From NCBI GenBank assembly GCA_026014585.1, contig JAOZIA010000024.1:186001-250000 (forward strand): a stretch of 64,000 bases of DNA. The letters are read 5' to 3'. This document shows, in pieces, positions 37,013 through 62,446 of the stretch. The number at the start of each line of letters is the position of its first letter. Position 1 is the stretch's first letter. The notes under the pieces were generated by a model. That model was not told the DNA's origin. It saw nothing but the letters and a program-made list of their open reading frames with translations, and ran no database searches. A program made the translations under genes and the position numbers. Source of the DNA: Candidatus Bathyarchaeota archaeon. GTDB taxonomy: Archaea; Thermoproteota; Bathyarchaeia; Bathyarchaeales; Bathycorpusculaceae.

Positions 37013-38242
37013 ATGGAACTAGACCAATTCTATTACAAACTAAAACTAAAAACAACCCCAATAATAGACGATTCCACACTTCGCGACGGCATACAAATGC
37101 CCGGATTAGCAGTTGGACCCAAAGAATCAGCAAAAATAGCCCAACTACTCTGCGACATAGGAACCGAAAGAATTGAACTATTCCACTACCAAGAACCCGA
37201 CAAAAAAGCCGTAAAACAAATCTTCGACCAAAACCTACCCATACGAGTAGCCGCATGGTGCAGATCCATCAAAGAAGACATCGACAGCGCCGTCACACTC
37301 GGCTTTAACGAAATAGGCATATCCCATCCAGTCTCAAATATACACTTCCAAGCAAAATGGCCCGAAAAAACCCATGAGCAAATCCTTGCAAACATCGTGG
37401 ATGTGGTAGAGTACGCGGCAAAAACCTGCGGATTACGGACTTTTGTGCATGGAGAGGACAGCACACGGGCAGATTGGGAGTTTGAACGCGAACTAATCAA
37501 TGCTGTGGCATCGGCGGGTGCGGAGTGTTACCGTATCTGTGACACTGTCGGTATTGGATTGTCGGCTCCTGAAGCGCCATTGCCCAATGGCATCACCGCC
37601 AAAGTGGTGGCAATCAAAAAAGAAACCAAAATAGGCGCCATAGAAGGTCATGCACATGACGATTTTGGCAACGCCGTTGAAAACACTATGGCTGCTATTC
37701 GAGCGGCGAGCGGGGTTTGGGATAAAATTTACGCCAGCACAACATGTCTAGGGATTGGTGAACGTGCAGGAAATGCAGAAACTGAAAAAATCATCCTTAA
37801 CTTGTACCTGCATTATGGCATCGAAAAGTTTGCAGGCAAAACAGTAAAGCTCAAAGAGTCAGCAGATTACATCGGAAAAGCCGCAGGATACATTGTCCCA
37901 CCAAACAAGGCCATTGTTGGTGATTATGGGTTTGCGCATGAGTCGGGTATTCACACGCATGGCGTTATCAGTGACCCTTGGACTTATGAGCCTTACCCGC
38001 CTGAACTGGTGGGCAACACACGACGATTAACCATTGGGAAACAGTCAGGCAAAGGCATCATGAAGTACAAAATCCAAGAACTCTCAGGCAATGAACCCGA
38101 CGAAGCAACAGTAGCGCTGGTTGTGGAGAAGATTAAAGATATATACGCCAACGGCAGACGTGCCTCGCTTAAAGAGGAAGAGTTCAAGAAAATCCTGCAT
38201 AATCTGAAAATTTTGCCTGAAAATGGCAAAGGAAACTGCTAA
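37013..38242 (+). CDS. Homocitrate synthase/isopropylmalate synthase-like enzyme, paralogue 1
   Basis: 409 aa DRE-TIM metallolyase: IDDSTLRDGIQMPG (metal Asp and catalytic Arg), HGEDSTRADWEFE, the second metal motif GHAHDDFGNA, TTCLGIGERAGNAETEK, and the substrate-lid HESGIHTHGVISDP followed by TYEPYPPELVG and GKQSGKG. Classical isopropylmalate and homocitrate synthases have HxHND; here it is HxHDD. A close paralogue (roughly two thirds identical by eye) lies in the nitrogenase-like operon at 59290-60552. It is a stand-alone gene and lacks the C-terminal regulatory domain of LeuA. Re-citrate, citramalate or homocitrate synthase are all possible. Confidence 0.85.
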   Translation: MELDQFYYKLKLKTTPIIDDSTLRDGIQMPGLAVGPKESAKIAQLLCDIGTERIELFHYQEPDKKAVKQIFDQNLPIRVAAWCRSIKEDIDSAVTLGFNEIGISHPVSNIHFQAKWPEKTHEQILANIVDVVEYAAKTCGLRTFVHGEDSTRADWEFERELINAVASAGAECYRICDTVGIGLSAPEAPLPNGITAKVVAIKKETKIGAIEGHAHDDFGNAVENTMAAIRAASGVWDKIYASTTCLGIGERAGNAETEKIILNLYLHYGIEKFAGKTVKLKESADYIGKAAGYIVPPNKAIVGDYGFAHESGIHTHGVISDPWTYEPYPPELVGNTRRLTIGKQSGKGIMKYKIQELSGNEPDEATVALVVEKIKDIYANGRRASLKEEEFKKILHNLKILPENGKGNC

Positions 38243-42692: not shown

Positions 42693-45044
42693 TTGTCCCT
42701 AAATGAGTATAAACCTGGAAGCCGATTTTCTGGCATTATCGGACGCACTGTTGACCAATCTAGCCCAGCGTGGCCCATGCCGCTAAGAGCCAAAGAAGGT
42801 GTACCAAATGTTCTTTTCATAATCTTAGATGACACAGGATTTGGACAACTTGGATGCTATGGAAGCCCCATATCAACCCCAAACATAGACAATTTAGCTG
42901 CAAACGGGCTGCTCTACAATAATATGCACACCACTGCCCTTTGTTCCCCAACACGTTCCTGTATCTTAACAGGTAGGAACCATCATTCAAACGGAATGGC
43001 GGGAATCACTGAAATATCCACGGGGTATCCTGACTACAACGGGTACATTCCCTTCGAGAATGGTTTTCTTTCCGAGATGCTTCTGCAGAAAGGCTACAGT
43101 ACCTATGCAGTTGGCAAATGGCACTTGACTCCCGCTAACGAAATTTCAGGTGCAGGCCCCTATGACCGCTGGCCCTTATCTAGAGGATTTGAAAGGTACT
43201 ACGGTTTTCTATGTGGTGACACTAACCAGTATTATCCTGATTTAACGTCTGACAATCATAGTGTGATGCCGCCTAAATCCCCCGAGGAAGGTTATCACTT
43301 AACTGAGGATATAGTGGATGTTGCTATCTCGTTTATTGCTGACTCAAAACAAGTGGCACCCAGAAAACCGTTCTTTTTGTACTTCTGTACTGGTGCAATG
43401 CATGCACCCCATCACGTTCCAAAAGAATGGGCTGACAAATACAAAGGACAATTCGATGATGGATGGGATGCATATCGCGAAAAAGTTTTCAAAAGACAAA
43501 AAGAACTTGGAATAATGCCAGCAAATGCCGAGCTTTCACGCCATGACCCCGATGTTAAACAATGGAGTGAATGTACTGATGAGGAAAAGAAAGTTTATTC
43601 CCGTATGATGGAGGTTTTTGCGGGTTTTCTTTCTCACACTGATTATCACATTGGCAGGCTTCTTAACTTCTTAAAAACCATTGGTGAATTTGATAATACA
43701 CTTATCATGGTTCTTTCTGATAACGGAGCAAGCGCTGAAGGGGGTCCACAAGGTTCAATCAATGAAAATCTTTTCTTCAATAATGTTCCCGAACTGCTTG
43801 AAGACAACATTAAAATGCTTGACAAAATAGGGGGACCCGAAACTTTTAACCATTACCCGTGGGGCTGGACGTGGGCTGGCAACACACCTTTCCGCCGCTG
43901 GAAACGAGAAACCTATCGTGGCGGCATAAGTGACCCCTTCATTGTGCATTGGTCCAACGGAATCAAAGCAAAAGGCGAAATCCGAACACAATACGCTCAT
44001 GCAATTGACTTGGTACCCACTGTTCTTGAAGCGTTAGACATAGAACCTCCTTCTATGATTCGGGGCGTTGCGCAGTCTCCTATTCAAGGCGTTAGTTTTG
44101 CTCACACTTTTGATAGCCCCAATGCTTCAAGTAAACATCATACGCAATATTTTGAGATGCTTGGTCACCGCTCAATCTACAAAAACGGCTGGCGAGCAGT
44201 TTGTCCATGGCCTGGACCCTCCTTTGCAGAAGCAGGAAAGCCATTTGGCATGCCCATCTCTGCAGATGAATTAACACAGTTGGATGCAAAAGGCTGGGAG
44301 CTCTACAACATCAATGAAGATGTAACGGAAAACAAAAACATCGCCGCAGACAATCGACCTCACTTAATAGAAATGATTGCACAGTGGTACGTCGAAGCGG
44401 GTAAATATAATGTATTACCTGTTGACGGACGCGGTGTACAGCGGTTTGCTGAGGAACGCCCCCAGATTGCGTTGGAACGCACAAGCTACACCTATTATCC
44501 TAACACCCAGCCGATGCCATCTGATGGCGCTGTAAAGGTTCTCAACAGGCCTCACACAATCATCATAGACGCAGAAATAAGCGAGGGCACAGACGGGTTA
44601 ATAGTGTCACATGGCGCCAGTGAAGGCGGTTATGCTCTGTATGTAAAAGATGGAAAACTGATTTTTGCCCACAACTACCTAGCCAAAGCTATTTACTATG
44701 TCAAATCAGAAAAAAATGTGCCCACAGGCAGACATAAACTGCGTTATACATTTGAAGTCACAGGCAAACCTGACCCGGCAAATGGAAAAGGCACTCCTGG
44801 ACGGGGAAAACTCTACTTTGACGACGAATTGGTTGGGCAAAACGATATACCTGTAACTATTCCTATAGCGATTGGGCTAAGCGGCAGATTCTCAATCGGA
44901 GCAGCTCCCAGTGCACCTATAACTCCCGACTATAATGGCGCCTTTAAGTTTAAAGGAAAAATCTACAGCGTAACTGTGGATGTTGGCGGAGAAAACATCG
45001 AAGATTCTAGCGCAAAAATGCGCAATGTAATGGCGAGACAATAA
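42693..45044 (+). CDS. Arylsulfatase-type sulfatase (large form)
   Basis: 783 aa hydrolase of sulfate esters. Metal-binding Asp pair at residues 46-47 (ILDDTGFG), formylglycine motif CSPTRSCILTGR with the modified Cys at residue 84, VGKWHLTP, MHAPHHVPKEW and VLSDNGASAEGG for the active-site bivalent metal, and a C-terminal beta-sandwich of about 200 residues. No signal peptide, so it seems cytoplasmic. TTG start with GGAGG upstream. It is followed by a BASS transporter (22-base gap) and a DUF1622 gene, probably one operon. Cys-type activation needs the maturase at 52227-53432. Confidence 0.92.
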   Translation: MSLNEYKPGSRFSGIIGRTVDQSSPAWPMPLRAKEGVPNVLFIILDDTGFGQLGCYGSPISTPNIDNLAANGLLYNNMHTTALCSPTRSCILTGRNHHSNGMAGITEISTGYPDYNGYIPFENGFLSEMLLQKGYSTYAVGKWHLTPANEISGAGPYDRWPLSRGFERYYGFLCGDTNQYYPDLTSDNHSVMPPKSPEEGYHLTEDIVDVAISFIADSKQVAPRKPFFLYFCTGAMHAPHHVPKEWADKYKGQFDDGWDAYREKVFKRQKELGIMPANAELSRHDPDVKQWSECTDEEKKVYSRMMEVFAGFLSHTDYHIGRLLNFLKTIGEFDNTLIMVLSDNGASAEGGPQGSINENLFFNNVPELLEDNIKMLDKIGGPETFNHYPWGWTWAGNTPFRRWKRETYRGGISDPFIVHWSNGIKAKGEIRTQYAHAIDLVPTVLEALDIEPPSMIRGVAQSPIQGVSFAHTFDSPNASSKHHTQYFEMLGHRSIYKNGWRAVCPWPGPSFAEAGKPFGMPISADELTQLDAKGWELYNINEDVTENKNIAADNRPHLIEMIAQWYVEAGKYNVLPVDGRGVQRFAEERPQIALERTSYTYYPNTQPMPSDGAVKVLNRPHTIIIDAEISEGTDGLIVSHGASEGGYALYVKDGKLIFAHNYLAKAIYYVKSEKNVPTGRHKLRYTFEVTGKPDPANGKGTPGRGKLYFDDELVGQNDIPVTIPIAIGLSGRFSIGAAPSAPITPDYNGAFKFKGKIYSVTVDVGGENIEDSSAKMRNVMARQ

Positions 45045-50673: not shown

Positions 50674-52158
50674 ATGAGTCAAAATAAGAAACCTAATATT
50701 CTTGTAATGTGGGGCGACGACATAGGCTGGTGGAACATCAGCTACAACAACAAAGGCCAAATGGGCTACCGCACACCAAACATCGACCGCATAGCAAATG
50801 AAGGAATCTCTTTCACCGATTATTACGGGCAACAAAGCTGCACCGCTGGTCGCGCCGCATTCATTACAGGCCAAAACCCTATTAGAACAGGCTTAACAAA
50901 AGTTGGCATGCCCGGGGCTAACTTAGGGTTACAATCTGAAGATCCAACAATCGCTGATTTGCTCAAACCCTTAGGCTATGCCACAGGTCAATTCGGCAAA
51001 AACCACTTAGGTGACAGAGATGAATTTTTGCCCACAAATCACGGGTTTGACGAGTTTTTCGGCAACTTGTATCATTTAAATGCAGAGGAAGAACCTGAAG
51101 ACCCCGATTATCCCAAAGACCCTGAATTTAGAAAGAAGTTTGGCCCTCGTGGGGTTATTCATAGTTTTGCTGGTGGCAAAATTGAAGATACAGGACCCTT
51201 AACCAAGAAAAGAATGGAGACAATTGACGATGAAATAACTGAAAATGCAATAAGGTATATTGAAGATAACGGCAAGTCGGGTAAACCGTTTTTTGTGTGG
51301 TATAACACTACAGCGATGCATTTCAGAACACATCCAGCCCCTAAGCATCTTGGAAAAAGTGGCAAAGGCGGCTTCTACAACGATGTAATGGTTGCTCACG
51401 ATGAAAACATCGGTAAACTCCTTAGCAAACTCGACGAACTCGGTATCGCAGATGACACTATCGTTATGTATTCTACGGATAATGGCCCACACTATAACGC
51501 TTGGCCAGATGGTGCAATAACGCCATTTAGGAGCGAGAAAAACACGAATTGGGAGGGTGCTTGGCGGGTTCCAACATTTGCTCGCTGGCCTAACAAATTC
51601 CCGGCAGGTCTGGTTCTTAATGGTATTGTTTCTCATCAAGATTGGCTTCCGACGCTTTTAGCAGCTGCAGGCGAGCCGAACATAAAAGAAAAACTATTGC
51701 AAGGGCATACTGCAGGTGTAAAGAATTTCAAAGTACACCTCGACGGGCACAACATGCTGCCTTACTTTATGGGGCAAGAAAAAGACAGCCCACGCCAATC
51801 CTTCTTCTACATAAATGATGACGGGCAACTTGTAGCTCTTAGGTACAATGATTGGAAGCTTGTTTTCTTGGAACAGAGAGCTAAAACAATGGCGTTGTGG
51901 GGTGAACCTTTCGTATCCCTGCGTATTCCAAAAATGTTTAATTTACGCAGAGACCCATTCGAACGCGCTGACCTTAACTCGAACACATATTGGGACTGGC
52001 TTATTGAACACGCATTCTTACTAATTCCTGCCCAAGCTTTTGTTGCAGAACAAATCCAATCTTTAAAAGAGTTCCCACCACGTCAAAAGCCTTCCTCATT
52101 CAATCTTGATCGCGTGATGGAACACCTACAAGATGCAGCAGGTGCTGGCCAACATTAA
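50674..52158 (+). CDS. Arylsulfatase, second copy
   Basis: 494 aa, alkaline-phosphatase-fold sulfatase. MWGDDIGWWN holds the metal Asp pair (residues 15-16); the formylglycine motif is CTAGRAAFITGQ with Cys at residue 56 in the CxAxR form; GKNHLGDRDEF, TAMHFRTHP and YSTDNGPHYNAWP give the other active-site residues. No signal peptide. Followed 68 bases downstream by an anaerobic sulfatase maturase, which would convert Cys 56 to formylglycine without oxygen. Distant from the 783-aa enzyme, so substrates likely differ. Confidence 0.93.
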   Translation: MSQNKKPNILVMWGDDIGWWNISYNNKGQMGYRTPNIDRIANEGISFTDYYGQQSCTAGRAAFITGQNPIRTGLTKVGMPGANLGLQSEDPTIADLLKPLGYATGQFGKNHLGDRDEFLPTNHGFDEFFGNLYHLNAEEEPEDPDYPKDPEFRKKFGPRGVIHSFAGGKIEDTGPLTKKRMETIDDEITENAIRYIEDNGKSGKPFFVWYNTTAMHFRTHPAPKHLGKSGKGGFYNDVMVAHDENIGKLLSKLDELGIADDTIVMYSTDNGPHYNAWPDGAITPFRSEKNTNWEGAWRVPTFARWPNKFPAGLVLNGIVSHQDWLPTLLAAAGEPNIKEKLLQGHTAGVKNFKVHLDGHNMLPYFMGQEKDSPRQSFFYINDDGQLVALRYNDWKLVFLEQRAKTMALWGEPFVSLRIPKMFNLRRDPFERADLNSNTYWDWLIEHAFLLIPAQAFVAEQIQSLKEFPPRQKPSSFNLDRVMEHLQDAAGAGQH

Positions 52159-52226
52159 CAATCACACTAAGTAGTGATAGTTCAGCACCTTCTTTTCTTT
52201 TTAACAGTAATTGAGATTCGATAGAT

Positions 52227-53432
52227 GTGAACAAAAAAGAGCAGAAAATTCAAGCTTTTCATGTAATGGCTAAACCTACAGGCTCCAGATGTAATTTGAA
52301 TTGTGCCTATTGTTTTTACTTAAAAAAGAAACAGCTCTATCCGAAGAGTAATTTTCAAATGTCAGAGGAAATTATGGAAAAGTACATCCGACAAACCCTT
52401 CAAGCCCACAACTCACCCAGCGTAACCATTGCTTGGCAGGGTGGTGAACCAACGCTGATGGGTTTAGACTTTTTCCGCCACGCCACTAATGTGATAAAAC
52501 AAAATGTTCGTCCAGGCGTAACAGTTGAGAATACTTTGCAAACCAACGGTGTTTTGATTGATGATGAATGGTGCAAGTTTTTGCATGACAACCATTTTTT
52601 GGTAGGTTTAAGCAGTGATGGCCCAAAACAAATGCATGATGCTTATCGAAAAGACAAAACAGGGCGTTCAGTTTTTGATAAGGTGATACACAGTGCTCAT
52701 CTTATGCAGAGATATAATGTTGAATTTAACATTCTTTGCACAGTAAATGCCGTGAACAGTCAGCATCCCCTTGAAGTTTACCGGTTTTTCCGTGATGAAC
52801 TAAAAACGCCTTATCTGCAGTTTATCCCCATTGTTGAGCGAGATAACGAAACAGGAAATCAAGAAGGCAACTGTATCACTGAACGTTCAGTGAATCCAAA
52901 GCAGTATGGAAAGTTTTTGATTGAAGTCTTTGATGAATGGGTTACTAATGATGTGGGTAAGATGTTTGTTTTGTTTTTCGATGGAGTATTAGCTTCCTAT
53001 GTTAGGGGGTACTCGTCTCTTTGCATATTGAGCCCTAAATGTGGGGAAGGTGTTGTTCTTGAACATAACGGCGATGTTTATAGTTGCGACCATTTTGTGG
53101 AACCAAACTACTTTTTAGGAAACATTTCAAACACTTCCATAGCCGACCTTGTTTTTAGTCAAAGGCAAAGAGATTTTGGGGATTATAAATGGAAAACTCT
53201 GCCTCGTTACTGCCGAGAATGCGAGTTCTTGTTTACTTGTTATGGTGAATGCCCAAAAAATCGGGTTCTTAAAACGCCTGACGGCGAAGAAAACTTAAAT
53301 TGGCTATGTGAAGGCTTGAAAGCATTTTTTGTCCATACAAAAGAGCCCATGCAGATGATGGCAAACTTGTTGCTTAGAGGTCGACCTGCTTCAGATATAA
53401 TGCAAATCTGGCATGAAAAAACAGTTCAATAA
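52227..53432 (+). CDS. Anaerobic sulfatase-maturating enzyme (radical SAM, SPASM)
   Basis: 401 aa. Radical SAM cluster motif CNLNCAYCF with cysteines at residues 22, 26 and 29, followed by WQGGEPTLMGLDFF, LQTNGVLIDDEW and a C-terminal SPASM domain (CGEGVVLEHNGDVYSCDHFV, CRECEFLFTCYGECPKNR) that binds two more 4Fe-4S clusters. This is the anSME architecture that oxidises a Cys or Ser in sulfatases to formylglycine. GTG start. It sits behind the 494-aa sulfatase and may serve the 783-aa one as well. Oxygen-sensitive, so the cell is an anaerobe. Confidence 0.92.
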   Translation: MNKKEQKIQAFHVMAKPTGSRCNLNCAYCFYLKKKQLYPKSNFQMSEEIMEKYIRQTLQAHNSPSVTIAWQGGEPTLMGLDFFRHATNVIKQNVRPGVTVENTLQTNGVLIDDEWCKFLHDNHFLVGLSSDGPKQMHDAYRKDKTGRSVFDKVIHSAHLMQRYNVEFNILCTVNAVNSQHPLEVYRFFRDELKTPYLQFIPIVERDNETGNQEGNCITERSVNPKQYGKFLIEVFDEWVTNDVGKMFVLFFDGVLASYVRGYSSLCILSPKCGEGVVLEHNGDVYSCDHFVEPNYFLGNISNTSIADLVFSQRQRDFGDYKWKTLPRYCRECEFLFTCYGECPKNRVLKTPDGEENLNWLCEGLKAFFVHTKEPMQMMANLLLRGRPASDIMQIWHEKTVQ

Positions 53433-54815: not shown

Positions 54816-55636
<821 letters not shown>

Positions 55637-55637
<1 letters not shown>

Positions 55638-56566
55638 TGGTGCTGTCTATGAAGCAAGCAACTCTCACGTACACTCAATACAAGAGTCCCCAAAAGAAGA
55701 GCTACGCTGAAATAATTCAGGAACATCCCTGCTACGACTCTAAAGCACACTTCAAATTTGGCAGAGTTCACCTTCCAGTCGCGGCAGGATGCAACATAGG
55801 ATGCAACTATTGCGTCCGAAAATACGACTGCGCCAACGAAAACCGACCGGGAGTCACAAGTAAACTCTTAGATGCAAAAGAAGCTATAGAAAAAGTTCGC
55901 TGTACAGTGAAGCATGACCCGCGGCTTCGTGTTGTAGGCATTTCTGGACCGGGCGACCCGTTGACCAGTGACACAACATTTGAAGTGTTTGAACAGGTTC
56001 ACAATGAGTTTCCAGATTTAACGCTTTGTCTTTCAACCAACGGCTTATTGTTACCGCAAAAATTAAGCCAAATCAAGAAAGTAGGCGTTAACGCACTTAC
56101 AATCACCATAAACGCAGTAGACCCAGATGTGGGTTCAAAAATCTACTCGTTTGTTAACTATCAAGGCAAAACCCTGCACGACAAAGAAGCCTTCCAAGTG
56201 CTAAGCAAAAACCAGCTAGATGGCCTTCGAGAAGCTGCCGCTGCAGACATAGCCGTAAAAGTCAACACAGTATACATTCCAACCATAAATGCGGAACACA
56301 TCCCCGAAATCGCCAAAACCGTCCGCAGCCTAAAAGCTTACATAATGAACATCATACCCCTAATTCCACAGGGCAAATTTGCACACATACCCGCACCCAC
56401 CCAGCAAGACATCCACACCATCCGACAAGCCTGCCAAGACACCTTGATTCAATTCCACAATTGCGTGCAATGCCGAGCTGACGCTACAGGTGTACCTGGA
56501 GAAGAAGCCTGCGGTAGCCGCTTGCCCAATTTTGAACAACATCTAAAAACAAAGGAGACACCATAG
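55637..56566 (+). CDS. NifB-like radical SAM cofactor maturase
   Basis: 309 aa stand-alone NifB (no NifX tail), as in methanogens. HPCYDSKAHFKFGRVHLPVA, CNIGCNYC (Cys 52, 56, 59), YDCANENRPGVTS, ISGPGDPL, LCLSTNGLLLP, TITINAVDP and the C-terminal NCVQCRADATG (Cys 276, 279) are NifB markers. NifB fuses two 4Fe-4S clusters and inserts carbide to give NifB-co, the core of all nitrogenase cofactors. Its place between nifH- and nifD-like genes, overlapping the first by one base and abutting the second, ties it to this enzyme. Confidence 0.93.
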
Positions 56567-57949
56567 ATGCCGCTAATTTTACCTGACTGCGACAAAACTG
56601 TACCTGAACGCCAAAAGCACGTCTACATAAAAGACTCCAGCGACCCCTTCATGATTCCAGCCTGCAACATTGCCACTGTACCTGGTGACTTAACTGAGCG
56701 TGGATGCACTTATGCTGGCTGCCGAGGAGTTGTTGGTGGTCCCGTTAAGGATGTGATTCAGCTTCAGCATGGTCCTATCGGTTGTGCTTATTATCCTTGG
56801 GATGCTCGACCCCACGTTGCCACAGGCACCAACTTCCACTTAGCTAACGTGTTCTCTACGGACTTACGCGAATCCAACATTGTCTTTGGCGGCGAAAAAA
56901 AACTCTACGATTCAATCATAGAATCCAACAAAGCTTTCCCTGATGCACAAGGCGTATTCGTATATGCCACCTGCGTTGCAGGCTTGATTGGCGATGACAT
57001 CGAAGCCATAGCAAAGCGTGCAAGCAAAGCCATAGGCAAACCTGTAGTAGCTTTCAACTGTCCCGGTTTTCGTGGCGTAAGCCAAAGCTTGGGTCATCAC
57101 ATAGGCAACGAGATGCTCTTTAACAAAATCGTCGGCACAGAGGAACTCAAAGAGAAAACGCCTTACGACATAAACCTGATTGGTGAGTACAACATTCGCG
57201 GTGATGACTGGCTGATTTTGTCCCTGCTTGAATCCGTGGGGTTACGGGTGGTCTGCACTTTCACTGGTGACTCGTCTATCCATGACATTGCCAAGATGCA
57301 TGCTGCAAAACTCAACGTAATTCGCTGTGCACGTAGCGCCAAATACATAGCTGAGATGATGAAAGAAAAATACGGCACGCCCCATATGGAAGTTGACCTC
57401 TACGGTATCGAACAAACCGCTGAGGATTTGCGTCAAATCGCCAAGTTTTTTGGGTTAGAAGCCAAAGCCGAGGAAGTCATTGCTAAGGAGACTGCTGAAA
57501 TCAAAGAGGAGATGGATTTTTACCGTGAAAAGTTCAAGGGTAAAACTGTCATGATTTATCAGGGTGGTCCGCGTAGTTGGCACTGGCCAAGCTTTATGGC
57601 GGAGTTGGGCATGGAGGTCAAAGTGGTCGCTACAACCTTTGGACATGAGGATGACTACGAAAAAATCGTTAAGCGAGTCAAAGACGGCACTGTGGTTATC
57701 GATAACCCAAACGCACCCGAGTTCGAAGAGATGATATTTAAGTACAAGCCTGACCTGTTCATCGCGGGGCAAAAAGAGAAGTACCTCAGTTACAAGTACG
57801 GTGTTCCCTTCCTTAATGGTCACACATACGAAAGCAAAGGCGGCTACATGGCATTTAAGGGCACAGTGCGTTTTGCCCGTGACATCTATCAGGCGCTCTA
57901 TTCGCCAGCGTGGCGGTTCATACGAAAAACCGAGGAGGAACACCAGTAA
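56567..57949 (+). CDS. NifD-like nitrogenase alpha subunit with conserved cofactor ligands
   Basis: 460 aa. P-cluster cysteines Cys47 (RGCTYAG), Cys73 (GPIGCAY) and Cys136 (ATCVAGLIGDD) match NifD Cys62, 88 and 154. FRGVSQSLGHHIGNE keeps Gln173 and His177 (NifD Gln191, His195). Cys254 (VIRCARSAKYI) and His419 (NGHTYESKGGY) match the cofactor ligands Cys275 and His442, and GGPRSWH keeps the Arg359 equivalent. Such a set is expected of nitrogenases and cofactor-bearing relatives, not of BchN or CfbD. The segment YYPWDARPH differs from the NifD Arg96 area. Starts directly after the nifB stop and overlaps nifK (TAATG). Confidence 0.93.
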   Translation: MPLILPDCDKTVPERQKHVYIKDSSDPFMIPACNIATVPGDLTERGCTYAGCRGVVGGPVKDVIQLQHGPIGCAYYPWDARPHVATGTNFHLANVFSTDLRESNIVFGGEKKLYDSIIESNKAFPDAQGVFVYATCVAGLIGDDIEAIAKRASKAIGKPVVAFNCPGFRGVSQSLGHHIGNEMLFNKIVGTEELKEKTPYDINLIGEYNIRGDDWLILSLLESVGLRVVCTFTGDSSIHDIAKMHAAKLNVIRCARSAKYIAEMMKEKYGTPHMEVDLYGIEQTAEDLRQIAKFFGLEAKAEEVIAKETAEIKEEMDFYREKFKGKTVMIYQGGPRSWHWPSFMAELGMEVKVVATTFGHEDDYEKIVKRVKDGTVVIDNPNAPEFEEMIFKYKPDLFIAGQKEKYLSYKYGVPFLNGHTYESKGGYMAFKGTVRFARDIYQALYSPAWRFIRKTEEEHQ

Positions 57950-59283
57950 TGGTGGTTATCACAAAAACCCGCAGCGTCGCCATCAACGCTCCCAAAATGT
58001 GCCAGCCAATCGGCGCAATCTGGGCAACCCTTGGTGTACATGGTAGCGTGCCCCTAGTGCATGGTTCACAGGGATGCTCCACGTACCCGCGTAACTTGAT
58101 GGGGCGGCATTTCCGTGAACCAATCGAAGTCGCCATCACTTCACTTCACGAAAAAGCAACAATCTTCGGTGGTGCATCTAACCTTAAGCAGGCACTTGCC
58201 AACATCATCATACGCCAGCAGCCCGAGCTCATAACAGTCATAACTACTTGCCTTAGCGAAACCACAGGCGATGACATCCACGGCATCGTTAAAGCTTTCC
58301 GCGCAGAAAAACCTGAACTTGCCAAGCAATCAAAAATCGTTACAGTCAACACCCCCAGCTACGTTGGAACCCATGTGGTTGGCTATGATAATGCAGTAAA
58401 AGCAATGGTGTCTCAGCTCTCAACAGGTAAGGACCGCCCAAGTGACAAAGTCAACGTAATCCCTGGTATAATAAACCCTGGTGACGTAATGGAGCTCAAA
58501 CACATATTCTCCGAAATGGGCGTACCTGCCATATACATAACAGACATCTCACAAACCCTCAACGCGCCCCTGCGTCTGCCAAAGCCCCATTTCCCACGAG
58601 GAGGAACAACAGTGGAGGAAATCGCAGACTGCGCCAACTCGCTGGGTACGATAGCGGTTTGCAAGCATCAAGGGCAGGGTGCAGTTAATTATCTTAAGGA
58701 TAAGTTTAGTGTACCTGGGCAGTTGTGTGAGACGCCAATTGGTGTAGAAGCAACGGAGGATTTCCTTGAACACATCACCCGCTTTACAGGCAAGAAAGTG
58801 CCTGAATCATTGCTTGACGAGCGTGACCTGCTGGTAGATGCAATGGTGGACTCCAGCCACATCACATTTGGCACTAAAGTCGCTATTTTCGGTGATCCTG
58901 ACGTAGCCTTTGCTCTGGCACGATTCACCTATGAACTGGGTATGCAGCCAATTCACGTGATGACAACTCTGGAAACCCCCAAGTTTGCGCCTGATATGAA
59001 AGCGTTAGCAACCGATTACGGCACAGGCGAAGACCAAAACAACCTCATTGTCGGCGGCGACCTCTACGAACTACACCAGAAAATCAAAGAAAAACCCGTT
59101 GACCTCTTAATCGGTGACTACAAAGGCAAATACATCGCCAAAGAAGAACACATCCCACTGGTCCGCGTCGGATTCCCTCAAGCTGACCGCTTCGGTTACC
59201 AACGAAGAGCAATGCTTGGTTTCCGCGGCTCACTGCAACTACTGGACACACTGGTGAACACTGTAATGGATACCAAAGATTAA
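57949..59283 (+). CDS. NifK-like nitrogenase beta subunit
   Basis: 444 aa from ATG 57949. P-cluster cysteines Cys18 (MCQPIGA), Cys43 (HGSQGC) and Cys101 (TTCLSETTGDD) match NifK Cys70, 95 and 153. RHFREPIEVAITSLHEKATIFGG, TPSYVGTHVVGYDNAVKAM in outline and the C-terminal GFPQADRFGYQRRAMLGFRG follow NifK throughout. The N-terminal extension of Azotobacter NifK is missing, as in AnfK/VnfK and archaeal forms. It would form the alpha2beta2 core with the NifD-like protein. A new ATG of the same transcript: TAATG with nifD. Confidence 0.93.
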   Translation: MVVITKTRSVAINAPKMCQPIGAIWATLGVHGSVPLVHGSQGCSTYPRNLMGRHFREPIEVAITSLHEKATIFGGASNLKQALANIIIRQQPELITVITTCLSETTGDDIHGIVKAFRAEKPELAKQSKIVTVNTPSYVGTHVVGYDNAVKAMVSQLSTGKDRPSDKVNVIPGIINPGDVMELKHIFSEMGVPAIYITDISQTLNAPLRLPKPHFPRGGTTVEEIADCANSLGTIAVCKHQGQGAVNYLKDKFSVPGQLCETPIGVEATEDFLEHITRFTGKKVPESLLDERDLLVDAMVDSSHITFGTKVAIFGDPDVAFALARFTYELGMQPIHVMTTLETPKFAPDMKALATDYGTGEDQNNLIVGGDLYELHQKIKEKPVDLLIGDYKGKYIAKEEHIPLVRVGFPQADRFGYQRRAMLGFRGSLQLLDTLVNTVMDTKD

Positions 59284-59289
59284 AGGGGG

Positions 59290-60552
59290 GTGGGCACTCT
59301 GAAGCTGGACGATTTTTTCTTTAAAATGCCCAGTCTCAAAACCGACCCCATCATCGATGACACTACCCTACGAGATGGCATGCAAATGCCTGGCTTAGCC
59401 GCCAAACCCAAAGATGCTGAAAAAATCGCTCAAGCTCTCACCGAAGTCGGAGCCCAACGCATTGAACTCTTCCATTACCAAGATGTTGACAAGAAAGCCG
59501 CTAAACGGATTCTCGCCAAAAAACTGGACTGCCGCATTGCTGGCTGGTGCCGCACCCTTAAAGCAGACGTTGACAGTGCAGTTGATTTAGGCTTTGATGA
59601 AGTTGGCATTTCTCATCCTGTTTCTTATGCACATCTAAACGCAAAGTGGCCCAACAAAACCTCCGCTGAGTTGTTGGCGAACTTGGTTGATGTGGTAGAG
59701 TACGCCGCGAAAACACATGGACTGCGAACGTTTGTGCATGGAGAAGATGGTACGCGAGCTGAATGGAGCTTTGAGAAGCAACTGGTTAATGCGGTTGCAG
59801 ATGCTGGGGCGGAGTGTTACCGTGTCTGTGACACTGTAGGCATTGGATTACCTGAACTGGATGCACCTCTACCTGTAGGTATCCCCGCGAAAATTAAAGC
59901 TCTAAAGAAGGAAACCAGTATAAAATCCATAGAAATCCACACTCATGATGACTTAGGCAATGCTGTAGCTAACGTTATCGCTGCTATACGCGCCGCTTCT
60001 GGTTTGTATGATAAAATCTACATAAACACTACCTACTTGGGAATTGGTGAACGGGCAGGGAATGCTGAAACCGAAAAAATCATTCTTAATCTTTACCTGA
60101 ACTATGGCATAAAAAAATATGAATCAAAAATTGGCAAGCTTAAAGAAACCGCGGATTTCATTAGCCAAGCCATTGGTTTTACAGTACCTCGCAAACAAGC
60201 TATTGTAGGTAAACACGGTTTTACCCATGAGTCGGGCATCCACACTTATGGTGTCCTTACCAACCCTTGGACTTATGAGCCCTATCCGCCAGAACTGGTC
60301 GGCAACAGCCGAAGCCTAACGATAGGCAAACAATCAGGTAAAAATATAATCAAACATAAAATCATTGAAGTCACTGGTTGCGTGCCCAGCAGTGAAACTG
60401 TTGCTGTTGTGGTGGAGCGGGTTAAAGCGGCTTATGCGACTGGACGACGAAAATCGCTTAGCGATAAAGAATTTGAGCGTATGCTAAAAGACCTCAACTT
60501 GTTTAACGTAGACCCTGTTGCTGGAGCTATGTTTGTTCAAAATGTTGCTTAA
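59290..60552 (+). CDS. Homocitrate synthase (NifV)-like enzyme, paralogue 2 in the nitrogenase-like operon
   Basis: 420 aa DRE-TIM enzyme, condensing an acyl-CoA with a 2-oxo acid: IDDTTLRDGMQMPG, HGEDGTRAEWSFEK, second metal motif IHTHDDLGNAV, TTYLGIGERAGNAETEK, HESGIHTYGVLTNP, GKQSGKN. It starts 6 bases after the nifK stop; AGGGGGG overlaps the GTG at 59290, and CTG 59299 aligns with the ATG of paralogue 1, so it may be the true start. Position implies it makes R-homocitrate, the organic part of the nitrogenase cofactor; sequence alone cannot exclude Re-citrate or citramalate synthase. Confidence 0.85.
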   Translation: MGTLKLDDFFFKMPSLKTDPIIDDTTLRDGMQMPGLAAKPKDAEKIAQALTEVGAQRIELFHYQDVDKKAAKRILAKKLDCRIAGWCRTLKADVDSAVDLGFDEVGISHPVSYAHLNAKWPNKTSAELLANLVDVVEYAAKTHGLRTFVHGEDGTRAEWSFEKQLVNAVADAGAECYRVCDTVGIGLPELDAPLPVGIPAKIKALKKETSIKSIEIHTHDDLGNAVANVIAAIRAASGLYDKIYINTTYLGIGERAGNAETEKIILNLYLNYGIKKYESKIGKLKETADFISQAIGFTVPRKQAIVGKHGFTHESGIHTYGVLTNPWTYEPYPPELVGNSRSLTIGKQSGKNIIKHKIIEVTGCVPSSETVAVVVERVKAAYATGRRKSLSDKEFERMLKDLNLFNVDPVAGAMFVQNVA

Positions 60553-60775
60553 GGGTGTCTGTTTAGAGGTGTTGATGAATAGGCTGTAAGTGATTTGCCT
60601 TTATTTGTGGGTTACGTGGTAATTACGGCCATAGTGTAAACTTTTTACGATAATTACAGTTGTTTAGTGGATTTTTTACAGTTTTTCATAATTTTTATGA
60701 GAAAACCTCAACTATGTTTAAATCAGGCATCACCAAATCATCTTGACAAACAAACACAACCGTGGAGATTTAGTC
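60553..60775. promoter_or_regulatory. intergenic region before asnB with short palindromes
   Basis: Contains GTAATTAC (60619-60626), GTAAA-CTT-TTTAC (near 60638-60650) and a longer imperfect TTTTCATAA/TTATGAGAAAA pair (near 60685-60708). These AT-rich sites make a separate promoter for asnB likely. None matches the palindrome before nifH. GGAG at 60763-60766 is the ribosome site. Confidence 0.4.
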
Positions 60776-62446
60776 ATGTGCGGCATAGCAGGAATATTCA
60801 ACATATCCGAGCCACTCCCAGTAGCCAGAGACAAAGCCCTAAGAATGGCAACCAAAATCAGGCACCGAGGTCCCGACTGGAGCGGCATATACAACGATGA
60901 CAAAGCCATCCTAGCCCATGAACGCCTCTCAATAGTAGACGTCGAACACGGCGCCCAACCCCTCTTTGACAAGAAAACAGGCAACGCGCTTGCCGTAAAC
61001 GGGGAAATCTACAACCACATACAACTGCGCAAAGAGCTAAAATGTGAACACTTGTGGCAGACAAAATCAGACTGCGAAATCATCCTATATCTGTACGATG
61101 AGTATGGTCCTGACTTTCTTAACATGCTAAACGGCATGTTCGCCTTCATCCTATACGACAAAGCAAAAGGCACATACTTTATTGCTCGAGACCACATCGG
61201 AATTATACCCTTGTATGTGGGCTATGATGATAAAGGAACACTGTACGTAGCAAGCGAAATGAAAGCCCTAACCGAGTACTGCACCACAGTTAAAGAGTTC
61301 CCGCCGGAACACTACATGCTGGGCAACCACAAGTTTGTTCAATGGTACAAACCTAAATGGGCAACAAAAGCACCAACTAAAAAACTTGTGCTCTCCGATT
61401 TACATAAAGCACTGGAAAAGTCTGTTCGTGGACAGATGATGTCTGATGTTCCTTACGGCGTACTTATCTCTGGCGGGTTAGATTCCTCACTAATAGCATC
61501 TATCGCTTCAAAGTACCGCAAAAAACGGGTTGAGTCAGGCGGTAAAGAGGAGGCATGGTGGCCAAGGCTACACTCGTTCTCTGTTGGCTTAGCGGATTCA
61601 CCCGACCTTAAATATGCACGAAAAGTTGCCGATTACATTGGCACAGTTCATCATGAAATCATTTTCACCATTCAGGAAGGCTTTGACGCCATAAAAGACG
61701 TCATATACCACATAGAAACCTTTGATGTAACCACCATACGCGCCGCAACCCCGATGTATCTGATGGCACGCAAAATCAAATCCATGGGCATCAAAATGGT
61801 GCTCAGCGGCGAGGGCGCAGATGAGGTTTTTGGCGGATATCTCTACTTTCACAAGGCACCCAACAAGCAAGAATTTTACGAGGAAACTGTGCGCAAACTC
61901 TTCATGTTAAGCAAATACGACTGCCTCAGAGCTAACAAGGCAACTGCGGCATGGGGTGTGGAAACTCGTGTGCCATTTTTGGATCGGGAATTTTTGGATT
62001 TTGCTATGAACTTTGACCCTCAAGAAAAAATGTGCACAGGAGACAGAATTGAAAAGTACGTGCTACGAAAAGCATTTGAAGGCTACATTCCCGACGAGAT
62101 ATTGTGGCGGCAAAAAGAGCAGTTCAGCGACGGCGTAGGGTACGGCTGGATTGACTACCTCAAACGGCACGCAGAGTCTGCAGTTACTGATGAAATGATG
62201 GCAAATGCTAAAACGCGTTTTCCAGTGCAAACCCCCAACTCTAAGGAGGAGTACTATTATCGGCAAATCTTTGATGGTTTCTTCTCGTGTCCAGCTGCTG
62301 CGTTAACTGTTCCTGTGGGTCCAACGATTGCTTGCTCAACTCCAACTGCTTTTCGTTGGAGTAAAGAGTTCGCTAACACTCCTGACCCTTCAGGTCGTTC
62401 AATTAGAGAACATAAGGATGAAGCCGCCCAAAGCCTTGGCAACTAA
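60776..62446 (+). CDS. asnB: Asparagine synthetase, glutamine-hydrolysing (AsnB)
   Basis: 556 aa. ATG 60776 leaves Cys2 as the free N-terminal nucleophile (MCGIAGIFNISE). The glutaminase domain (RHRGPDWSGIY, LAHERLSIVD, NGEIYNH) is followed by the synthetase with the PPi loop LISGGLDSSLIAS, SGEGADEVFGGYLYFHKAP in outline and the ETRVPFLDREFLDFAM motif. Ordinary full-length AsnB. It follows the nitrogenase-like operon after 223 bases on the same strand. It may carry fixed nitrogen into asparagine, or be ordinary housekeeping. Confidence 0.95.
   Translation: MCGIAGIFNISEPLPVARDKALRMATKIRHRGPDWSGIYNDDKAILAHERLSIVDVEHGAQPLFDKKTGNALAVNGEIYNHIQLRKELKCEHLWQTKSDCEIILYLYDEYGPDFLNMLNGMFAFILYDKAKGTYFIARDHIGIIPLYVGYDDKGTLYVASEMKALTEYCTTVKEFPPEHYMLGNHKFVQWYKPKWATKAPTKKLVLSDLHKALEKSVRGQMMSDVPYGVLISGGLDSSLIASIASKYRKKRVESGGKEEAWWPRLHSFSVGLADSPDLKYARKVADYIGTVHHEIIFTIQEGFDAIKDVIYHIETFDVTTIRAATPMYLMARKIKSMGIKMVLSGEGADEVFGGYLYFHKAPNKQEFYEETVRKLFMLSKYDCLRANKATAAWGVETRVPFLDREFLDFAMNFDPQEKMCTGDRIEKYVLRKAFEGYIPDEILWRQKEQFSDGVGYGWIDYLKRHAESAVTDEMMANAKTRFPVQTPNSKEEYYYRQIFDGFFSCPAAALTVPVGPTIACSTPTAFRWSKEFANTPDPSGRSIREHKDEAAQSLGN

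Follow-up and report, generated by a model that had tools for sequence, protein, structure and literature searches.

A NifD-like protein of a Bathyarchaeia archaeon as the probable alpha subunit of a Mo-type nitrogenase independent of NifEN

The window analysed in this work (the whole stretch of 64,000 nucleotides, from a Bathyarchaeia archaeon) contains an open reading frame (ORF) whose product resembles NifD. The question raised by this locus is whether the protein is the alpha subunit of a genuine nitrogenase, with its cofactor held by the canonical ligands, or a relative that acts on another substrate, as two unusual segments, YYPWDARPH and GCRGVVGGP, had led the original prediction to consider.

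56567..57949, plus strand: nifD, nitrogenase alpha subunit (TIGR01862 score over the cut-off, ligand columns, tree and predicted fold)

The ORF starts with ATG, is free of internal stops and encodes 460 aa. Its product passed the cut-offs of both TIGR01862 (nitrogenase component I alpha; 599.7 bits, cut-off 486) and the NCBIfam subfamily TIGR01284 (alt_nitrog_alph; 569 bits, cut-off 513). The narrower equivalog models nifD, VNFD, ANFD and nifE all gave scores under their cut-offs, far under them for VNFD and ANFD, the score against canonical NifD (TIGR01282) being 512.8 bits for a cut-off of 653.6. This pattern fits a nitrogenase that would fall outside the three classical types. The closest solved D chain was that of 9spz (E 2e-155). 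The AlphaFold2 model of D alone had a mean pLDDT of 75.6 and a pTM of 0.78, and a Foldseek search with it gave nitrogenase alpha chains with query-normalised TM values of 0.82-0.87 among the 50 best matches; because its low-confidence stretches (residues 46-55, 74-77, 79-87 and 166-172) are parts of the cluster pockets, this model supports the fold only and the pocket was not judged from it. NifD is under strong purifying selection, with a dN/dS of ~0.04 in the two computable pairs, for which dS was near saturation.

The ligand positions were evaluated in a MAFFT L-INS-i alignment containing the NifD proteins of Gluconacetobacter (5koh) and Sinorhizobium, an ancestral NifD (9hbn), Azotobacter VnfD (5n6y) and AnfD (8boq), 9spz_A, NifE, two nitrogenase-like proteins and five Bathyarchaeia relatives, the sequences of the solved chains being taken from HMMER alignments. 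Column numbers are those of A. vinelandii NifD and were set from motif anchors. The codons of the main residues are the following.

56705..56707, plus strand: Cys47, P-cluster ligand (NifD Cys62), by alignment
56783..56785, plus strand: Cys73, P-cluster ligand (NifD Cys88), by alignment
56972..56974, plus strand: Cys136, P-cluster ligand (NifD Cys154), by alignment
57326..57328, plus strand: Cys254, cofactor ligand (NifD Cys275), by alignment
57560..57562, plus strand: Gln332, position 355 of the 355-360 pocket loop, by alignment
57821..57823, plus strand: His419, cofactor ligand (NifD His442), by alignment

The original prediction had assigned Cys254 and His419 to the two cofactor ligands, Gln173, His177 and Arg336 to Gln191, His195 and Arg359, and had considered the P-cluster cysteines intact. 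In the full alignment neither Cys254 nor His419 fell off the ligand columns, the three other residues occupied the proposed columns and C47, C73 and C136 were aligned with C62, C88 and C154, so that this part of the prediction held throughout. C254 and H419 were present in 6/6 Bathyarchaeia proteins. The columns A65, G69, V70, G87, R96, G185, R277 and S278, together with G356, G357, F381, G424, K426 and E427 in the C-terminal part, were also kept, and the same set of residues was found in the five relatives, whose NifD proteins are 81-86% identical. All ten residues reported by Garcia et al. as invariant in nitrogenases (V70, Q191, H195, C275, R277, S278, G356, F381, G424 and H442; PMC7216921) were found in this NifD, which retained as well the homocitrate-side residues Q191, K426 and E427. 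An identification of the ORF as NifE was discarded, its residues at columns Q191/H195/R359/F381 being Q, H, R and F and those of the NifE rows K, N/Y, K and K/T. At the level of sequence, these results confirmed the product of 56567-57949 as a genuine nitrogenase alpha subunit.

The ORF is the third of five genes arranged head to tail on the plus strand, and the other four are listed below.

54819..55637, plus strand: nifH, Fe protein, 272 aa (TIGR01287, 429.4 bits, cut-off 394.35)
55637..56566, plus strand: nifB, radical SAM protein of the [Fe8S9C] precursor, 309 aa (TIGR01290 and motifs)
57949..59283, plus strand: nifK, nitrogenase beta subunit, 444 aa (best PDB match 9spz_B, E 1e-119)
59290..60552, plus strand: nifV-like gene, HMGL/homocitrate-synthase family, 420 aa (6ktq match and conserved place after nifK)

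NifH has the P-loop GKGGIGKS and the cluster cysteines C94 and C129, and is 85-91% identical across the five relatives. NifB, which is without a NifX domain, has the CX3CX2C motif plus C276/C279; its score against TIGR01290 (302 bits) was under the cut-off of 343.65, yet this model was its best match by far. The P-cluster ligands of NifK (C18, C43, C101 and S137) were aligned with 9spz_B. The ATG of nifK overlaps the stop of nifD by one base, which implies that no vnfG or anfG gene for a gamma subunit lies between D and K. The order H-B-D-K-V was identical in all six nif-carrying Bathyarchaeia genomes (that of the window and the five relatives), and dN/dS, where computable, was 0.04-0.10 over the cluster genes, with dS near or at saturation. 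None of the neighbouring window genes that were tested occurred in the flanking stretches examined in the five relatives, and a scan for promoters and terminators in the operon gave no more hits than did shuffled sequences. Contamination was rejected as an origin of the cluster, which recurs in five related genomes and lies in the window on a contig of 576,886 bases. Directly downstream of it is a gene for asparagine synthase B (window 60743-62446), not found around the clusters of the relatives. Elsewhere in the window we observed a radical SAM/SPASM protein resembling an anaerobic sulfatase maturase, preceded by a sulfatase (50674-53432), and a second large sulfatase-like ORF (42693-45044).

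When the six nif genomes were searched with PF00148, exactly two proteins, D and K, were found in each one of them, showing that nifE and nifN are absent from the genome of the window and from those of the five relatives. Since the relative G118 is a single contig of 2.73 Mb, this absence is not only a matter of assembly gaps.

The fifth gene was found directly after nifK in 6/6 nif genomes. The closest solved relative of its product was the homocitrate synthase 6ktq (E 3e-49), and its score against TIGR02660 (NifV) was 273.9 bits, below the cut-off of 462.9. The window contains a second member of this family outside the cluster, 66% identical to the operon protein.

37013..38242, plus strand: nifV-like paralogue outside the cluster (family search and tree)

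Among the 91 genomes searched of this archaeal family, 42 had one copy of the gene and five had two copies. All five two-copy genomes carry nif, and the sixth nif genome has the operon copy alone. The six operon copies formed one clade (100/100) apart from the other copies. The 37013-38242 copy appears to be of a housekeeping type, widespread in the archaeal family and single in most of the relatives that have any, and we propose the operon enzyme as a putative source of homocitrate.

Taken at roughly three chances in four, the best explanation is that this Bathyarchaeia archaeon has a Mo-type nitrogenase independent of NifEN, with the ORF encoding its alpha subunit, and that the D/K pair would be its own scaffold as well as the catalyst. 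According to this proposal, NifB would make the [Fe8S9C] precursor, which would be loaded straight into apo-NifDK already bearing its P-cluster and matured there to FeMo-co with NifH, molybdate and homocitrate, the last being supplied by the NifV-like enzyme encoded directly downstream. Cys254 and His419 would hold the cofactor, and electrons from NifH would pass through the P-cluster to the reduction of N2. The maturation in place is suggested by analogy with Roseiflexus, whose NifHBDK makes FeMo-co without NifEN, with NifDK maturing it, and where V or Fe was no substitute for Mo (PMC11573651). As the Roseiflexus parts are all present here, together with a likely source of homocitrate, the cluster points to a nitrogenase that probably uses Mo as its metal and has D/K as its own scaffold. 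In the literature surveyed, we found no report of expression of a Bathyarchaeia nitrogenase or of N2 fixation by it.

The genomic distribution of the cluster bears on whether its product still fixes N2. We found nifD in 6/257 genomes of the class, belonging to two genera of one family, and 398 genomes sampled evenly from the phylum gave no further nifD outside this set. P-II regulators are usual partners of archaeal nif genes. P-II proteins were absent from 5/6 nif genomes, which counts against the best explanation; ammonium transporters were present in 6/6. It could be proposed that the cluster is transcribed and its products folded, N2 fixation having been lost and the genes being kept for another role, e.g. 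electron disposal or H2 production. The patchy distribution and the missing P-II regulators agree with such a loss, and Roseiflexus itself has never been shown to grow diazotrophically (PMC11573651). Nevertheless, the purifying selection on all the computable genes and the complete conservation of the ligands in the six genomes argue against it, and we consider a loss of this kind improbable.

Other PF00148 proteins were observed in congeners without nif. These genomes have a five-gene cluster (L069:8188-15086, G004:C10; also L070, L071, L072 and L073) composed of a BtuF/BtuC/BtuD-like ABC importer, a NifH::PF00148 fusion of ~720 aa and a PF00148 partner, which is absent from 6/6 nif-carrying genomes and may serve for the import and reduction of a tetrapyrrole or metallophore. 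In the one fusion that was aligned, that of G004, the three D-type cluster cysteines were kept, Cys275 was Thr and the column of His442 was a gap. A NifDH homologue has been mentioned in termite-gut Bathyarchaeia (PMC7886697). A parallel to this importer-linked cluster was found on a plasmid of Methylocystis parvus (L038:3743-8819), where a lone nitrogenase-component-1-like protein, with most ligand residues missing, is encoded beside a TonB-dependent receptor and ABC substrate-binding genes.

The composition of the pocket was then considered. The segments YYPWDARPH and GCRGVVGGP do contain real departures from canonical NifD (R97 to Pro or Gln and N98 to His or Asn), as the original prediction had noticed, but the key pocket residues were kept, A50, G54, V55, C73 and R81 corresponding to A65, G69, V70, C88 and R96. 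The proposal of an altered substrate choice drawn from these segments is consequently weak and not supported, and GVVGGP occurs also in the solved nitrogenase 9spz. Two other changes were specific to the lineage, at position 425 (Gln, Thr, Asn or Met) and at position 355, which was Gln or Glu in 6/6 Bathyarchaeia, unlike every reference compared. In the alignment this residue was Val in Nif, Thr in Vnf and Pro in Anf; it is Ile in A. vinelandii NifD (PMC7216921), and for the Thr of VnfD a contact with the carbonate ligand has been suggested (cited in PMC7216921). One could imagine a cofactor or bridging ligand unlike that of standard FeMo-co, tuned by Gln/Glu355, with a homocitrate-like ligand made by a lineage-specific synthase related to the housekeeping paralogue of Bathyarchaeia and not by a true NifV, an arrangement that we regard as unlikely.

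A comparison with the metal-unique residues of Garcia et al. gave a mixed picture, D carrying Mo-type residues at 65 and 96, a V-type residue at 358 (Pro, as in Vnf) and a V/Fe-type one at 440, where Gln of the Mo enzymes is Asn; none of the Fe-unique residues was found in D by alignment. At the V/Fe markers Cys65, Lys96, Leu360, Lys380 and Arg426, D has A, R, S, T and K, and its residues at 69, 359, 380, 426 and 427 did not match the Fe or V/Fe type. We read this mixture as Mo-like with probable ancestral mixing, and not as an indication of another substrate.

Some of the unusual pocket residues would also agree with a nitrogenase-like reductase that carries a NifB-made [Fe8S9C] cluster, has neither Mo nor homocitrate and acts on another substrate, like methylthio-alkane reductase. 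That system (MarDK; 9fmg/9d9u) has a similar list of parts free of NifEN, with NifB-like MarB and NifH-like MarH as partners, and its large cluster is ligated by Cys and His (PMC12552129). However, the His ligand of MarD is on another loop (PMC12552129), whereas His419 is on the canonical column of His442; the match between the two proteins is remote (E 4e-31, aligned over residues 57-371 only); the cluster of MarD is without homocitrate (PMC12552129), whereas the operon described here invariably includes a NifV-like gene; and the homocitrate-side residues are kept in NifD. A reductase of this type is therefore very unlikely.

In the NifD tree, where NifE rows were placed across the root, the Bathyarchaeia D proteins formed one clade (100/99), whose sister group consisted of 9spz and Vnf/Anf; a 100/98 branch separated this assemblage from Nif I-III. 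The grouping of 9spz with the Vnf/Anf proteins had lower support (91/84), and 9spz, which was not identified as F-Mc, had its own branch of about 0.6 changes per column. By this placement, NifD would be basal in the lineage of the V and Fe nitrogenases, in the position that Garcia et al. give to the Chloroflexi 'Clfx' clade (PMC7216921); our tree contained no Chloroflexi sequence, and a direct union with Clfx rests on the literature (PMC11697101). Although the branching beside 9spz plus Vnf/Anf, the residues Pro358 and Asn440 and the alt_nitrog_alph score over the cut-off would suit an enzyme using vanadium or only iron instead of Mo, this alternative, the least likely of all, was rejected on account of the missing gamma subunit and the pocket residues (A65 and R96, where Vnf/Anf have Cys and Lys, and the five positions mentioned above), in line with the low VNFD and ANFD scores and with the finding that Roseiflexus NifDK gained no activity with V or Fe (PMC11573651).

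The Mo-type nitrogenase proposed here offers independent confirmation of a compact, NifEN-free nitrogenase set in a non-methanogen archaeon of a sediment lineage that is abundant but uncultured. Because a NifV-like gene consistently accompanies the set, the pathway can be tested directly with five genes. This bears on how the cofactor was made in the first nitrogenases and on how few genes would be needed to transfer nitrogen fixation to other hosts.

Among the solved structures, 9spz/9sq3 provided the closest D and K chains. GVVGGP, Pro358, Asn440 and Thr380 are shared by 9spz with the Bathyarchaeia NifD, from which it differs in having Val at 355, Arg-Arg-Asn at 96-98 and Ser at 441. The system of Roseiflexus sp. 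RS-1, of the 'Clfx' clade, has the same nifHBDK order, no NifEN and a basal position in the V/Fe lineage, and, as likened from the literature, shares the ligands and R96, R359, G69, V70, Q191 and E427 (PMC11573651, PMC7216921); it differs in belonging to a bacterium, in being biochemically proven and in that no NifV appears in the main text of the paper (PMC11573651). The nearest precedent is the nifHBDK set of Bathy-6 archaea described in 2024, from the same class of archaea, a set that keeps the H-B-D-K order and the active-site residues of NifD, is free of NifEN and clusters with Clfx (PMC11697101); the cluster of the window is a member of that published set or its close kin. The nitrogenase of this lineage was thus already reported, and it is a sound system but not a new kind of one. 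The main text of the Bathy-6 paper, searched for homocitrate and isopropylmalate, is without a NifV-like fifth gene (PMC11697101). What the present analysis adds is this fixed fifth gene, with a second copy of the family confined to nif-carrying genomes, the residue-by-residue test of NifD, the Gln/Glu at position 355, the whole-genome absence tests and the P-II search.
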